A stretch of DNA of 32,922 nt from Rhodospirillaceae bacterium (GTDB lineage Bacteria; Pseudomonadota; Alphaproteobacteria; Thalassobaculales; Thalassobaculaceae). The translations under genes were made by a program, and so were the position numbers. The DNA lies in the NCBI GenBank assembly GCA_002709155.1, contig PAQA01000039.1:1-32922 (forward strand), read 5' to 3'. Under the pieces are notes generated by a model. That model did no database searches and had not been told where the DNA came from. It saw only the letters and a list, made by a program, of their open reading frames with translations. Of this stretch, positions 19,879-31,793 are shown one piece after another (positions within the stretch are counted from its first letter, which is position 1; the number at the start of each line of letters is the position of its first letter).

Positions 19879-20499
19879 TCATATCGAGTTATGTATCCGA
19901 CGCTGTCGCATATATCTCAAAACTTTCCCTAAGATTCGATTGGTATGTGCTTTCCCCAAACCAGTCGAAACAACAAAGTCTGATCTTTTTCTTTTTTCGT
20001 GATCTGGCATCTGGCGCAATAAAATTGCTTTTAGTTTCTGCGGCGTCATACCAGGCCGATCCAACGCCCTCTGTCTTTGTAAAAAAGTAGGCGCTGATAC
20101 CACGCAGACGAAATCTCTACTGTACCGTTTTTTTGTTTCATAAAATAGAGGAATATCTAAGACCACCATTTTTGTTTTACCTCTACGGTGATTTTGTAAA
20201 AACTTATTTCTCTCCATATCGACCAATGGGTGGATTATCGACTCCAGGATAGACAAGCGATGTGGATCATCGAAGACAATTCGGCCCAGTGCTGCGCGGT
20301 TGACGCCGTCATCTGTCACTGCTGATGGAAAGTGTTTCTCAACCAAACCTACTGCTGCTCCACCCTTAGCAAAAAGATTGTGAACCACCTTGTCCGCATC
20401 AAACACCGGGATTTTTCTGTGGTTAAACATGCTTGCTGTGGTGGATTTACCCATAGCAATTGACCCTGTTAACACGACAACAATCACATTATCGGCCAA
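19879..20499 (-). CDS. coaE: Dephospho-CoA kinase
   Basis: CoaE phosphorylates dephospho-CoA at the 3'-OH of ribose, the last step of coenzyme A synthesis. The 206-residue protein has the P-loop GSIAMGKST (12-20), the DADKVVHNLF substrate region, HPLVDMERNKFL, VVLDIPLFYE and a lid region RQRALDRPGMT. The start is a TTG at 20499 without a clear Shine-Dalgarno; in-frame GTG codons at residues 5 and 9 are alternatives. The aroE, maf and ppsR-type genes that often sit on its other side in alphaproteobacteria are missing, so the gene borders the presumed origin directly. Confidence 0.94.
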   Translation of the reverse strand: MADNVIVVVLTGSIAMGKSTTASMFNHRKIPVFDADKVVHNLFAKGGAAVGLVEKHFPSAVTDDGVNRAALGRIVFDDPHRLSILESIIHPLVDMERNKFLQNHRRGKTKMVVLDIPLFYETKKRYSRDFVCVVSAPTFLQRQRALDRPGMTPQKLKAILLRQMPDHEKRKRSDFVVSTGLGKAHTNRILGKVLRYMRQRRIHNSI

Positions 20500-20673
20500 G
20501 ATGGTTTGTTTTGAATTATTCGTTGGTCAGTTAACACGTCGTACACACCAGTATTCTCCGTTACTTCACAGAACTAATTTTAAACTATAGCCCGATCGAA
20601 TCAAGTTTTGTAGCGGGTGCATGACATTTGGTTAGTTGATATTGATCGATGCGCAGCTATATCCCGCATATGA

Positions 20674-20709
20674 AGTGAACATAAAGTTATACACTGTGCT
20701 ATGTTCACT
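20674..20709. repeat. Perfect 10-bp inverted repeat with 16-nt spacer around a DnaA-like box
   Basis: The left arm AGTGAACATA (20674-20683) and right arm TATGTTCACT (20700-20709) are exact reverse complements. The spacer 20684-20699 contains TTATACACT (20687-20695), whose centre coincides with the dyad axis to within half a base. The chance of a perfect 10-bp repeat with a spacer up to 20 nt in a region this size is about 1 in 100. It may be an initiator or regulator binding site, or an extruding cruciform at the origin. Confidence 0.75.
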
Positions 20710-20793
20710 ACCTTGGGACAACTTGCTTGCAAAATTCCGTTTAATGAAGAATGGTCAGACTGTTACGGGTTTCCTCAAGATATCTACAGAAAT

Positions 20794-20816
20794 TTAACAT
20801 CGGTATATGATGTTAA
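20794..20816. repeat. Perfect 8-bp inverted repeat TTAACATC-N7-GATGTTAA in the presumed origin
   Basis: Arms 20794-20801 and 20809-20816 are exact reverse complements around GGTATAT. The repeat is followed at once by an A7 tract, the palindrome GAAATTTC (20831-20838) and a T7 tract. It looks like a dimeric protein site rather than a terminator, since no gene ends nearby. An 8-bp repeat with a short spacer is expected by chance about once in six such regions, so it is only suggestive. Confidence 0.6.
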
Positions 20817-21051
20817 CAAAAAAAGATAACGAAATTTCCTGAAAGTTTTTTTCTCTTATAGTGTGGATGTATCTTTTTAAAGTCGTTATCGTCATTGGTT
20901 TAGGTTAAAGCCTACTCTGGGGGGGTACCGGCAAGAATTGTTTCGATGATTGTTAATAACCATGTATAGTTTTTAATTCACTGAATTCACCTGTATCCAC
21001 TACAACAACAATTCTTTTTAATTATTTATTATTTTATAGGATGTTTTTAAC

Positions 21052-22086
21052 ATGAGGGAAAAAGCTCTTATCGATTCTCTTAACGGGAAGACCTCGAAAC
21101 GTCCTCCTTTCTGGTTTATGAGACAAGCTGGAAGATACTTATCAGAATATAGGGAGCTAAGGTCAAGAACGGGGGGATTTATCGACTTGTGTTTAAACAG
21201 GGCGGCTTCTACAGAGGTAACTCTTCAACCAATTAGACGATTTGATCCTGATGCAGCTATATTGTTCTCTGATATTTTAATAGTCCCATACGGTTTAGGT
21301 ATGGATGTGAGATTTGAAGAAGGTAAAGGACCGATTCTCGACGCCGTACGCGATGCAAAAGGTCTCGATAAGCTTTCAATCAATAAAAATTGGGCGAGGA
21401 TAGAGTCAACATATGAGACCGTTGATGCTGTGAGGTCTCAACTTGGATCCGACAAAACACTGATAGGGTTTAGTGGATCACCATGGACTGTCGCGACATA
21501 TATGGTTGAAGGGAAAAGCAGCAAAGACTATGCGATCGTTAAAGGGTGGGCTTACAGAGAAACAGAGGTATTCGAGAGGTTAATTAACTTGTTAGTAGCA
21601 GCAACCATAAAACATCTGTCTTTACAGATAGATTCGGGGGCTGACGTCATAAAGATCTTTGATACTTGGGCTGGGGTTTTGTCACCAGCAGAGTATCAAA
21701 AGTGGGTAATAAAACCCAGTGCTGAAATTTGTAGTGAGTTAAAGCGCCGATATCCAGACGTTAAAATCATTGGTTTTCCAAAGGGTGTTGGGGTTGGGTA
21801 TATTGATTTTGTTAGTAAAGTAGATGTTGACGGGGTGGCTGTTGACACAAGCGTGCCTCCAAAATGGGCAGCTGAGTTCTTACAAAATAAAGTGACTGTG
21901 CAAGGGAATCTAGACCCCATAGTTCTGACCGAAGGCGGCGACAAGATGATAGATCAAGCCCGAAATATAAGAGAGAGTCTACAAAATGGACCATTTATAT
22001 TCAATTTAGGGCACGGGGTGTTACCAAACACACCAGTAGAAAACTTAATTGAACTGGCGGAGTTTCTGAAGACACCACTCGAATAA
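21052..22086 (+). CDS. hemE: Uroporphyrinogen decarboxylase
   Basis: HemE removes four carboxyl groups from uroporphyrinogen III to give coproporphyrinogen III in heme synthesis. The 344-residue protein has the N-terminal signature WFMRQAGRYL (21-30), a second signature near GFSGSPWTVATYMVEG, and DPDAAILFSDILIVPYGLG, IKIFDTWAGVLSP and FNLGHGVLPNTP, all typical. The ATG is preceded by AGGA about 10 nt upstream. It is the first gene right of the presumed origin, as in Caulobacter and Rickettsia, and is followed 17 bp later by hemJ, which acts two steps later in the pathway. A possible -10 (TATAGT, 20965-20970) has no good -35. Confidence 0.98.
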   Translation: MREKALIDSLNGKTSKRPPFWFMRQAGRYLSEYRELRSRTGGFIDLCLNRAASTEVTLQPIRRFDPDAAILFSDILIVPYGLGMDVRFEEGKGPILDAVRDAKGLDKLSINKNWARIESTYETVDAVRSQLGSDKTLIGFSGSPWTVATYMVEGKSSKDYAIVKGWAYRETEVFERLINLLVAATIKHLSLQIDSGADVIKIFDTWAGVLSPAEYQKWVIKPSAEICSELKRRYPDVKIIGFPKGVGVGYIDFVSKVDVDGVAVDTSVPPKWAAEFLQNKVTVQGNLDPIVLTEGGDKMIDQARNIRESLQNGPFIFNLGHGVLPNTPVENLIELAEFLKTPLE

Positions 22087-26470: not shown

Positions 26471-26486
26471 TGTTTCACGTGAAACA
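26471..26486. promoter_or_regulatory. parS centromere-like site 1 (perfect palindrome)
   Basis: TGTTTCACGTGAAACA is an exact match to the universal chromosomal parS consensus bound by ParB. It sits directly after the mnmE stop codon, in the 90-bp gap before mnmG, about 5.6 kb from the presumed origin and 3.4 kb upstream of parB. ParB should load here, slide as a CTP-bound clamp, and be moved by ParA. Confidence 0.95.
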
Positions 26487-28444: not shown

Positions 28445-29070
28445 TGAAAATGGACGAACCCACCGAGGAGATCTTCACATCTCAACTAAATGTTTCACGT
28501 GAAACACTCGATATTTTTTCGGCTTACGGAGAGACGCTTGCTAAATGGCAATCCAAAATAAATCTAATATCAGCAAAAACTATAGATAATGTTTGGAGGC
28601 GTCACTTTCTAGATAGCGCGCAGCTTCATAACCTTTTACCAAGCGGAACAAAAAGCATATTGGATATTGGATCAGGAGCCGGTTTTCCTGGGCTGGTGTT
28701 AGCTATTATGGGCGCCAAAAACGTTACTCTAGTTGAGTCCGATTCAAAGAAATGTCTGTTTCTAAGCGAAGTTGTGCGCCGAACAGGGGGGCAGGCTAAT
28801 ATTGTCAATTGCCGGATAGAGGAATTTGATGGCGGATATTTCGATGTTATAACGGCAAGGGCGTTGGCACCAATGGATAAGTTGTTGTCTTACATAAATC
28901 CGCACTTCGGACCAGGGACAAAAGGAATTTTTCTTAAGGGCGAACAGGTGGATCGCGAATTGACTAAGGCAAAGAAACAATGGAAACTCAAGTATAAGAC
29001 TATTCCCAGCATAACTAGTGACGGGGGGTCGATAATTATAGTGGAGAAAATTTCAGGTGGTTCTGAGTAA
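28441..29070 (+). CDS. rsmG: 16S rRNA (guanine527-N7)-methyltransferase RsmG (GidB)
   Basis: RsmG methylates N7 of G527 in 16S rRNA. The 209-residue protein has the SAM-binding motif [17 protein letters not shown] (73-89), the N-terminal [11 protein letters not shown] region, [11 protein letters not shown] and [13 protein letters not shown]. The start is one of two adjacent ATGs overlapping the mnmG stop. Codons 17-22 (NVSRET) are spelled by a perfect parS palindrome. Its 3' end overlaps the likely GTG start of parA by 14 nt. All core motifs are intact. Confidence 0.97.
28491..28506. promoter_or_regulatory. parS centromere-like site 2, embedded in the rsmG reading frame
   Basis: TGTTTCACGTGAAACA matches the parS consensus exactly and lies inside rsmG codons for Asn17 (last base) through Thr22, giving N-VSRET. 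It is 2.0 kb right of site 1, and 1.4 kb before parB. The coding frame has kept the palindrome perfect at synonymous positions. Confidence 0.95.
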
Positions 29071-29872
29071 TACTAAAAAACAGACAGCTCGTGTCATGGT
29101 GGTTGCTAATCAGAAGGGAGGCGTGGGCAAAACCACTACCGCGGTCAACTTGGCAACAGCAATGGCAGCGTGCGAATTGCGGGTATTGCTGATAGATCTT
29201 GACCCTCAAGGAAACGCAAGTACGGGGCTGGGTATCCCAAGGGACGAGAGAGAATTCGATACTTATGCTGTTTTAAGTGGGGAAGTAAGTCTGGCTGCGG
29301 CTATAGCGCCATCTTCGGTTCCTGGGTTGTATGTTGTTCCAAGCTCCGAAAATCTTTCTGGTGCAGAAGTTGAATTGGTTACGGTAGATAAAAGGGAATA
29401 CAGGCTTAGAGAAGCTATGGTTCGACATTTAGAGGCAGAACAAGAACAATTCGACTTTATTATCATTGACTGCCCACCCTCACTGGGCCTTTTGACATTG
29501 AATGCATTTGTTGCTGCTGAAGCGGTTCTTGTTCCATTGCAGTGTGAGTTCTATGCCTTAGAGGGTTTGAGTATGCTACTTAAAACAATAGAGAGAGTAA
29601 AAAGAGCATTTAATCCATCACTAGAAATACAAGGGGTCGTGCTAACGATGGCAGATAAAAGAAATAATCTGTCTGAACAGGTCGCTGAAGATGTTCGCGA
29701 GCATTTGGGTTCAAAGGTTTATAACACTGTAATTCCCAGAAATGTAAGGGTCTCGGAGGCTCCATCGCATGGGCTTCCGGCACTAGTCTATGATCTGCAT
29801 TGTGCAGGCTCACAGGCATATATCCATCTAGCTAGCGAAGTTATAAAACGAGAGCGGGGTTACAATTTATGA
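29057..29872 (+). CDS. parA: Chromosome-partitioning ATPase ParA (Soj)
   Basis: ParA binds DNA nonspecifically as an ATP dimer and drags ParB-parS complexes poleward. The 271-residue protein has the deviant Walker A KGGVGKTT (20-27) with the signature lysine, LLIDLDPQGNAS, DYIIIDCPPSLG-type Walker B (FIIIDCPPSLGLLTLNA), and the C-terminal AGSQAYIHLASEVIKRE. The GTG at 29057 is taken as start because it gives the normal short leader before the Walker A, though ATG 29096 is possible (six residues before the motif). It overlaps rsmG by 14 nt and parB by 4 nt (ATGA), so both partition genes are translationally coupled. Confidence 0.97.
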   Translation: MVLSNTKKQTARVMVVANQKGGVGKTTTAVNLATAMAACELRVLLIDLDPQGNASTGLGIPRDEREFDTYAVLSGEVSLAAAIAPSSVPGLYVVPSSENLSGAEVELVTVDKREYRLREAMVRHLEAEQEQFDFIIIDCPPSLGLLTLNAFVAAEAVLVPLQCEFYALEGLSMLLKTIERVKRAFNPSLEIQGVVLTMADKRNNLSEQVAEDVREHLGSKVYNTVIPRNVRVSEAPSHGLPALVYDLHCAGSQAYIHLASEVIKRERGYNL

Positions 29873-30762
29873 GTGGCGGGGCTAAACGCAAACAACTAGG
29901 GCGTGGGCTATCATCCCTTTTAGGCAAGGACACGCTCGTTGAAGAGATCAAATCCGCAAACATACACCAAGTCATCTCAATTTCTAATATCCAACCGGGA
30001 GGGGGTCAGCCACGGCGAGTCTTTGACTATGGGGAACTTAGTGCCCTCGCAAAAAGTATTGAAGAGCGAGGCGTGCTTCAACCTCTTTTGCTAAGAAGGC
30101 TGCCAGCGGATAAAGAAAAATATGAGATTATAGCAGGCGAGCGTCGATGGAGGGCAGCGCAAATGGCTCAACTTCATGAGGTTCCCGCAGTAATCAAAGC
30201 GTTTAGTGATAAAGAGGCGCTTGAGATTGGACTCATAGAAAATATACAGCGTAGCGACTTGCAACCGCTAGAAGAAGCAGATGCATTTCAGCGACTCATT
30301 GACGAATATGGACATACACAGGAACTAGTAGCTAAAGCAGTTGGAAAAAGTAGAAGCTATGTCGCTAACTCGCTCCGATTACTTGCACTGCCAGTTAAAG
30401 CTCGGGATTATCTAGAGGCGGGCAGAATAACAGCTGGTCACGCCCGCGCCCTTTTGGTCTCCCCCGAGGCAGAGAAGCTGGCAGATTATGTTGTTTCAGG
30501 GGGGCTATCTGTTCGAGCCACTGAAAAATTAGTACAGGACAGACTGAATGACAAAAAGTCTACGGGGCTAAAAGCTGCGCGTAGAAAAAAATTAGATCTC
30601 CATAGTTTAAACCCGGATATTCTGGCTCTGGAACAAAGTATTTCTGAAAAAACTGGTTTAAAAGTGGAGGTTAAATCCAAAGAGGTCCACAGTGGCTCGG
30701 TTACAGTTCATTACCAAACTTTAGATCAATTCGATCACGTTGTTAAAAAGTTAACTTCCTAA
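29869..30762 (+). CDS. parB: Chromosome-partitioning protein ParB (Spo0J), CTPase clamp
   Basis: ParB binds parS, loads as a CTP-dependent sliding clamp, and builds the segregation complex. The 297-residue protein starts GRGLSSLLGKD, has GERRWRA (90-96) and ENIQRSD (124-130), the CTP-binding motifs, and a helix-turn-helix region (TQELVAKAVGKSRSYVANSLRLL) that reads parS. The C-terminal dimerisation domain follows. The early loop reads IQPGGGQPRR instead of the more common PNPxQPR form. Its stop codon interlocks with that of holA on the other strand (CTAA). Confidence 0.97.
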   Translation: MSGGAKRKQLGRGLSSLLGKDTLVEEIKSANIHQVISISNIQPGGGQPRRVFDYGELSALAKSIEERGVLQPLLLRRLPADKEKYEIIAGERRWRAAQMAQLHEVPAVIKAFSDKEALEIGLIENIQRSDLQPLEEADAFQRLIDEYGHTQELVAKAVGKSRSYVANSLRLLALPVKARDYLEAGRITAGHARALLVSPEAEKLADYVVSGGLSVRATEKLVQDRLNDKKSTGLKAARRKKLDLHSLNPDILALEQSISEKTGLKVEVKSKEVHSGSVTVHYQTLDQFDHVVKKLTS

Positions 30763-31793
30763 TTTTGTTTCCTTTTATAGGGCCTCATCAGGCAAACACC
30801 TATAAGCACCTGGCAGCAAAGAGGCATTTGTGGAATGCCGGTTGTTTTGCATTGATGTTCTCCTATGAAAAACCGCTCTAAAGCTAGCTCCAGTTTGCTT
30901 GTTGTCCAGGCGCGAGCCTGTATTTCAAATTCCTGTTTTCGACTCCAAAATACAGGCGGCCGAAGATTTTTGATAGTGGTTTCCAGTGGGACTCCTTCTT
31001 CTGATTTTGTTGCTATGCTGTGTAGTCTTTGGAAATGATTAATCACTGTCCTCAAAATAGTAACAGGGCTTTGGCCGCTGTCTTCGGCTCTTTGAAGAGA
31101 TAAACAAAGTGTCTCAAGGTTGCCAGAACCGGTGAAATATGCAATGTCCTCTAAAGCTAACAGTCCCGCATCACCAATAGAATCAATTGTCTCCTCAAGC
31201 GAAAGTTGGCCTCCAGGACCGACCATTAGAACCAGTTTATTTAGTTCGTTGACAGTGTGTTGACGATCGTTACCTAAGTGGGATAGAAGATAATCCAGTA
31301 CGTTTTCTCCTGCATCTATGTTATTTTCTTTAAATATTTCATTTATAAGATTTTTTAAAGAAGACCCTTGATCTCCATAGCACGCGAAGGAGCCTAACTT
31401 GTCGTTTCTCTCAAATAAAGCTCTTAATTTTGATCGTGTATCGAGATTGCCGGCGTCCAATATAATGTTGGCCTCTATCTTTTCAAATTGAAGAATTGTT
31501 TCAATTGTTGGCACCATGATGTCAGTAGCGTTTCGTATACGGATTAATTTCCGTTCGCCACTCATTGAAAAAGCTAGAGCGGAGTCGGTCACAAAAGTAG
31601 AATCCTGTTTGATGGTTTGGGCATCCACTTCGGTAATAGAAAAGGGGTCTTTAGGGTCCGTCACAGCGCCGCCAACAAGTTTTTTTATGGTTTCGCTCAC
31701 GTGACCGGCGTCTGGGCCGTACACTAAAATAGCAAAAATACCTTCAGGGAATTTTTTTGCTAGAGTCGGTAGTGCTTTATGCTGATATTTCAT
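30759..31793 (-). CDS. holA: DNA polymerase III delta subunit
   Basis: HolA is the wrench subunit of the clamp loader that opens the beta clamp. The 344-residue protein has the family N-terminal layout (FAILVYGPDAGHVSETIKKL and DPFSITEVDAQTI), then LTDSALAFSMSGERKLIRIRNAT-type sequence. The rest has LLSHLGNDRQHTVNELNKLVL and the C-terminal VITILRTVINHFQRL-like helix bundle (PVTILRTVINHFQRLHSI). No catalytic residues are expected. It is the middle of leuS-lptE-holA on the minus strand, overlapping lptE by 4 nt. It converges with parB, with overlapping stop codons. Confidence 0.93.
   Translation of the reverse strand: MKYQHKALPTLAKKFPEGIFAILVYGPDAGHVSETIKKLVGGAVTDPKDPFSITEVDAQTIKQDSTFVTDSALAFSMSGERKLIRIRNATDIMVPTIETILQFEKIEANIILDAGNLDTRSKLRALFERNDKLGSFACYGDQGSSLKNLINEIFKENNIDAGENVLDYLLSHLGNDRQHTVNELNKLVLMVGPGGQLSLEETIDSIGDAGLLALEDIAYFTGSGNLETLCLSLQRAEDSGQSPVTILRTVINHFQRLHSIATKSEEGVPLETTIKNLRPPVFWSRKQEFEIQARAWTTSKLELALERFFIGEHQCKTTGIPQMPLCCQVLIGVCLMRPYKRKQN

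Follow-up and report, generated by a model that had tools for sequence, protein, structure and literature searches.

The coaE-hemE intergenic region of a marine alphaproteobacterium is very probably its chromosomal replication origin

We found that positions 20500-21051 of the 32,922-nt stretch of DNA analyzed here (the window) very probably constitute a chromosomal replication origin, in view of a GC-skew switch, a conserved core, an ordered layout of DnaA boxes, trinucleotide run and AT-rich stretch, an unstable element, and the presence of parS sites and parAB. It is almost certainly an origin of an established type at an established location; its initiator sites are weak, and one neighboring gene block is gone. 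Contig C38 of a genome with 64 contigs (1.86 Mb, 71% complete) makes up the window, and the locus is organized as follows:

20500-21051, no strand: oriC (very probable), the entire coaE-hemE intergenic region, the sole gap above 181 bp, with the window's skew minimum (20593) and a skew switch at the matching site in the relative G016
19879-20499, minus strand: coaE, left boundary (PF01121, E=1e-36)
21052-22086, plus strand: hemE, right boundary (PF01208, E=1.6e-108)

An earlier note, made from the sequence alone, had placed an oriC between coaE and hemE, in what it described as the only gene-free stretch above 300 bp; the domain matches confirm both borders, and the gap measures 552 bp, versus 181 bp for the runner-up among all gaps in the window, while skew in G016 and conservation in relatives agree with the placement. 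Its length thus exceeds the 300 bp expected of a gap adjoining hemE at an alphaproteobacterial hemE-linked origin. However, the other boundary is coaE instead of COG1806 or COG1253, one of which is common, yet not universal, at such origins. PF03618 (COG1806) was not found in any of the five genus genomes searched, most of them incomplete, and it adjoins hemE in the family members G009, G010 and G018. In the complete, 1.5-Mb G024, with genes named by eye from the sequence, hemE and the origin are followed by a COG1806-like gene, a maf-like gene, coaE, dnaQ and secB. The order in the window is hemE, origin, coaE, dnaQ and secB. The simplest account, given that most genus genomes are incomplete, would be that COG1806 was deleted in the ancestor of the genus, and that coaE abuts the origin because of this loss. 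The maf-like gene beside COG1806 in G024 is also absent at the window's origin (19879-20499 in the window; 314-1769 in L049).

Since a whole-chromosome skew curve is not drawable for the window's own fragmented genome, we sampled complete relatives instead. Within the window, the cumulative GC skew reaches its minimum at 20593, inside the gap, a division into two parts fits best at 20.5 kb (permutation p=0.003), and the genes are 16 minus and 10 plus to the left and 8 plus and 4 minus to the right. In G016, a complete family member of 4.75 Mb with hemE at 2.3725 Mb, twenty 20-kb stretches were sampled; the skew was negative in all of them from 0.24 to 2.36 Mb, positive in all from 2.38 to 4.50 Mb, and about zero in the stretch containing hemE, where it goes positive over the final 5 kb. 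As the first stretch, at the start of the record, is slightly positive, the opposite switch (terminus) lies between 0.02 and 0.24 Mb. GC skew, which the earlier note had named as a check, thus supports the assignment, as the sign switch expected of a bacterial oriC occurs at hemE in this complete relative and is matched by the local minimum in the window. In G024, the record ends join at the gap, with a skew of -0.10 on the left and +0.10 on the right, and the skew is mixed along the rest of its length. Long contigs of the same-genus genomes G033 and G032 agree close to the gap and are noisy farther out.

The genus alignment comprises four genomes, namely, the window, L003 (SAR116 cluster bacterium AG-447-C21), and the metagenome assemblies L002 and L009. 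Invariant columns make up 59% of 20945-21012 versus 24% of 20500-20944, and the strongest 68-column cluster, at 20949, was unmatched in 10,000 permutations (p<1e-4). The elements within and around this core are listed below:

20687-20695, plus strand: weak DnaA box TTATACACT; the homologous site is TTATACACA in L002 and L003
20780-20788, plus strand: weak DnaA-box-like ATATCTACA, two mismatches, same sequence in the window, L002 and L003
20945-21012, plus strand: conserved origin core, 68 bp
20951-20959, minus strand: core box A TTATTAACA, two mismatches; TTATTCACA in L002 and L003, TGTGGAT-type in many family members
20974-20982, plus strand: core box B TAATTCACT; family form TAATCCACA or TGATCCCCA, the former carried by L002
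20983-20991, plus strand: core box C GAATTCACC; TTATCCACA in several class members
20993-21019, plus strand: putative DnaA-trio element, box-like GTATCCACT followed by the run ACAACAACA-ATTCTTTTT, from the rule for the basal unwinding system (BUS) and a survey upstream of hemE
21010-21050, no strand: putative DNA unwinding element, AT-rich; only one other 40-mer site in the window is less stable

In an alignment of 29 family members, window included, most carry upstream of hemE a reverse DnaA box (GTGGAT), then a TAATCCAC or TGATCCCC box, followed by a TTCAC box, a CAACTACAAC-like run and an AT-rich stretch. Close variants of this layout, such as ATCCCCGTTATCCACAGGCATCCAC in L103, occur in much of the class sample, and the core adjoins hemE also in genomes that retain COG1806. 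Aligning relatives, as the earlier note had suggested, therefore revealed a conserved region in which box positions are kept.

The DnaA boxes are weak, as had been claimed: none in the window's gap lies within one mismatch of TTATCCACA, whereas at least one such box occurs in 46 of the 56 surveyed gaps, and nine gaps besides that of the window have none. The previously reported one-mismatch box, TTATACACT at 20687, holds against TTATNCACA but has two mismatches to TTATCCACA, and the two additional degenerate boxes are present; TTATTAACA (minus strand, 20951), ATATCTACA at 20780 and the box-like GTATCCACT at 20993 each have two mismatches. Boxes with at most two mismatches number six, versus 2.5 in shuffles (p=0.046), which is barely above chance, and among 552-bp stretches of the window the one starting at 20651 is the richest in such boxes. 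The exact pattern TTWTNCACA has no match in the gap; counting exact boxes was uninformative, as the pattern occurs 154 times genome-wide versus 155 for the reversed control. Because L002 and L003 have TTATACACA and TTATTCACA at homologous positions, the boxes appear to be weakened forms of ordinary sites and not a new motif set. Low-affinity boxes function in Caulobacter (PMC4468827).

We found no dnaA in the window's assembly, which is consistent with its completeness of 71%; dnaA is present in 4/4 genus relatives. The DnaA of G033, of the same genus, has the usual box-reading helix GRDHTTVLHA, which, given what is generally known about DnaA domain IV, suggests ordinary box recognition. We also considered whether the genus origin might be linked to dnaA and set this aside, as no box within one mismatch occurs in the 625 bp preceding dnaA in G033. 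Accordingly, the earlier proposal of a divergent low-GC origin type is borne out only as to the weakened boxes, since the core is an ordinary alphaproteobacterial hemE-side core, the DnaA helix is the usual one, and absence of CtrA sites is common.

The perfect inverted repeats described earlier do exist, including a 10-bp pair at 20674-20683/20700-20709 around the 20687 box (p=0.02 versus shuffles), but this pair is not intact in L002 or L003, and we dropped it as a functional element for this lack of conservation. Another inverted repeat, TTAACATC-N7-GATGTTAA at 20794-20816, is near-exact in L003 and partial in L002, and is a possible protein-binding site.

Throughout the family, and in much of the class sample, trinucleotide runs of the CACTAC/CAACAAC type precede hemE. 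Of 56 genomes surveyed, 47 have ACTAC or ACAAC within the 200 nt preceding hemE, versus 14% of control blocks. In the BUS, DnaA first binds the boxes and from there spreads over a single strand of the trios, and the search rule calls for a DnaA box with at most two mismatches, a spacer of 0-16 bp and at least three 3'-NAN-5' trios (PMC8287927). The window satisfies this rule with GTATCCACT, the 9-bp spacer ACAACAACA and ATT-CTT-TTT, although it is a permissive one where the DNA is AT-rich. As in the BUS (PMC8287927), box(es), a short spacer, a trinucleotide run and an AT-rich stretch follow one another in matching order; however, the window's boxes are two to four mismatches from the consensus, and its run is mostly CAA, not CTA. 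CAA-CAA-CAA lacks the conserved middle base of the classic 3'-GAT-5' trios, which only CTA and the subsequent ATT-CTT-TTT have, so the CAA triplets may be either trios or spacer. Our literature search combining alphaproteobacteria and DnaA-trio found only epsilonproteobacterial work. The AT-rich end noted earlier provides the easily melted element expected of a bacterial oriC; an equally unstable AT-rich site, 31317-31360, lies within the coding sequence 30759-31793. In the complete 1.5-Mb L030 and L031 (joined across record ends), TAGTAGTA-type triplets occur beyond the AT-rich stretch, and would be opposite-strand trios.

The presence of parS and parAB nearby was also corroborated, with two perfect parS sites, parA and parB at 5-10 kb from the gap:

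26471-26486, no strand: parS, perfect 16-bp palindrome TGTTTCACGTGAAACA, by sequence match, directly after the mnmE stop codon
28491-28506, no strand: parS, perfect 16-bp palindrome TGTTTCACGTGAAACA, by sequence match, within the rsmG coding sequence
29057-29872, plus strand: parA (PF13614/PF01656)
29869-30762, plus strand: parB (PF02195, PF17762, PF23552)

Taken together, opening of the origin probably proceeds by a DnaA/BUS-type trio mechanism from the core into 21010-21050. DnaA would nucleate on several weak boxes in 20687-20991, and its oligomer would run rightwards along the core, through boxes A, B and C, and continue on a single strand of the CACTACAACAACAA run. The AT-rich 21010-21050 would then melt just before hemE, where the helicase would presumably load, and ParB bound to the two parS sites, at a distance of 5-8 kb, would carry out segregation of the newly copied origins. 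A broader proposal, which we advance only tentatively and regard as rather doubtful, is that the hemE-side core, with its constant order of elements (reverse box, TAATCC-type box, TTCAC-type box, CAACTACAAC run and AT-rich stretch), is the common unwinding module of alphaproteobacterial origins, which in this genus would operate independently of CtrA, using CAA-type trios and no boxes other than low-affinity ones.

The region resembles known hemE-linked origins to varying extents. Caulobacter crescentus Cori, a hemE-COG1806 origin, is the experimental precedent for an origin adjoining hemE (PMC1914354), and shares with the window the position beside hemE, weak DnaA boxes and an AT-rich element; moreover, the family form of box B, TAATCCACA/TGATCCCCA, is similar to the Caulobacter G-box TGATCCACA and W-box TCCCCA (PMC4285127). 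The window differs from Cori in having coaE in place of COG1806 and no exact CtrA or IHF match: a scan of the gap found no exact IHF consensus and, as the earlier note had stated, no exact TTAA-N7-TTAA site, with a single one-mismatch CtrA site in the AT-rich stretch, so that the hallmark of a Caulobacter-type CtrA-controlled origin is missing. CtrA sites are absent from most other alphaproteobacterial origins (PMC4468827). The predicted hemE-linked origins of Rickettsia and Wolbachia likewise have a hemE boundary, a gap of about 400-600 bp, an AT content above that of the genome, few boxes, and variable or absent CtrA sites, but their other boundary is COG1806 or COG1253 (PMC1914354). A literature search found no paper on a SAR116 origin.

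We considered whether the core might instead be the hemE promoter with its 5' untranslated region, or a divergent coaE/hemE regulatory region. The core does lie 40-110 bp upstream of hemE, a few sigma-70-like matches are present, and transcription within the hemE-adjoining origin is known in Caulobacter. However, promoter-like matches are not in excess (4 versus 2.5 +/- 1.4 in shuffles), Rfam returned no family matches, and neither the box-like and AT-rich elements of the core nor the skew switch at hemE in G016 favors such a region, making it highly improbable.

Slightly less probable still is a relic of an ancestral origin, in a lineage with eroded DnaA boxes that initiates elsewhere or independently of DnaA. 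The lack of any one-mismatch box, which most surveyed genomes have, and of dnaA in the window's assembly would both fit a relic; yet nine further genomes share the former, and incompleteness accommodates the latter, while the core is still constrained, the local skew minimum falls in the gap, and same-genus relatives have a dnaA with a canonical DNA-binding helix. A further alternative, that losing COG1806 and maf left behind a neutral AT-rich spacer that is origin-like by chance, would agree with the absence of COG1806 throughout the genus sample and with the marginal box count, but it is already contradicted by the conservation of the core relative to the remaining gap (p<1e-4), and an equivalent core adjoins hemE in genomes with COG1806; we regard its probability as negligible. 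An active origin thus remains by far the preferred reading.

This result pins down where the origin lies in an uncultured genus of marine alphaproteobacteria, and, once its genome is closed, metagenome read depth could give growth-rate estimates. Otherwise the finding confirms expectation, and provides a compact core that is alignable across the class and amenable to in vitro work.
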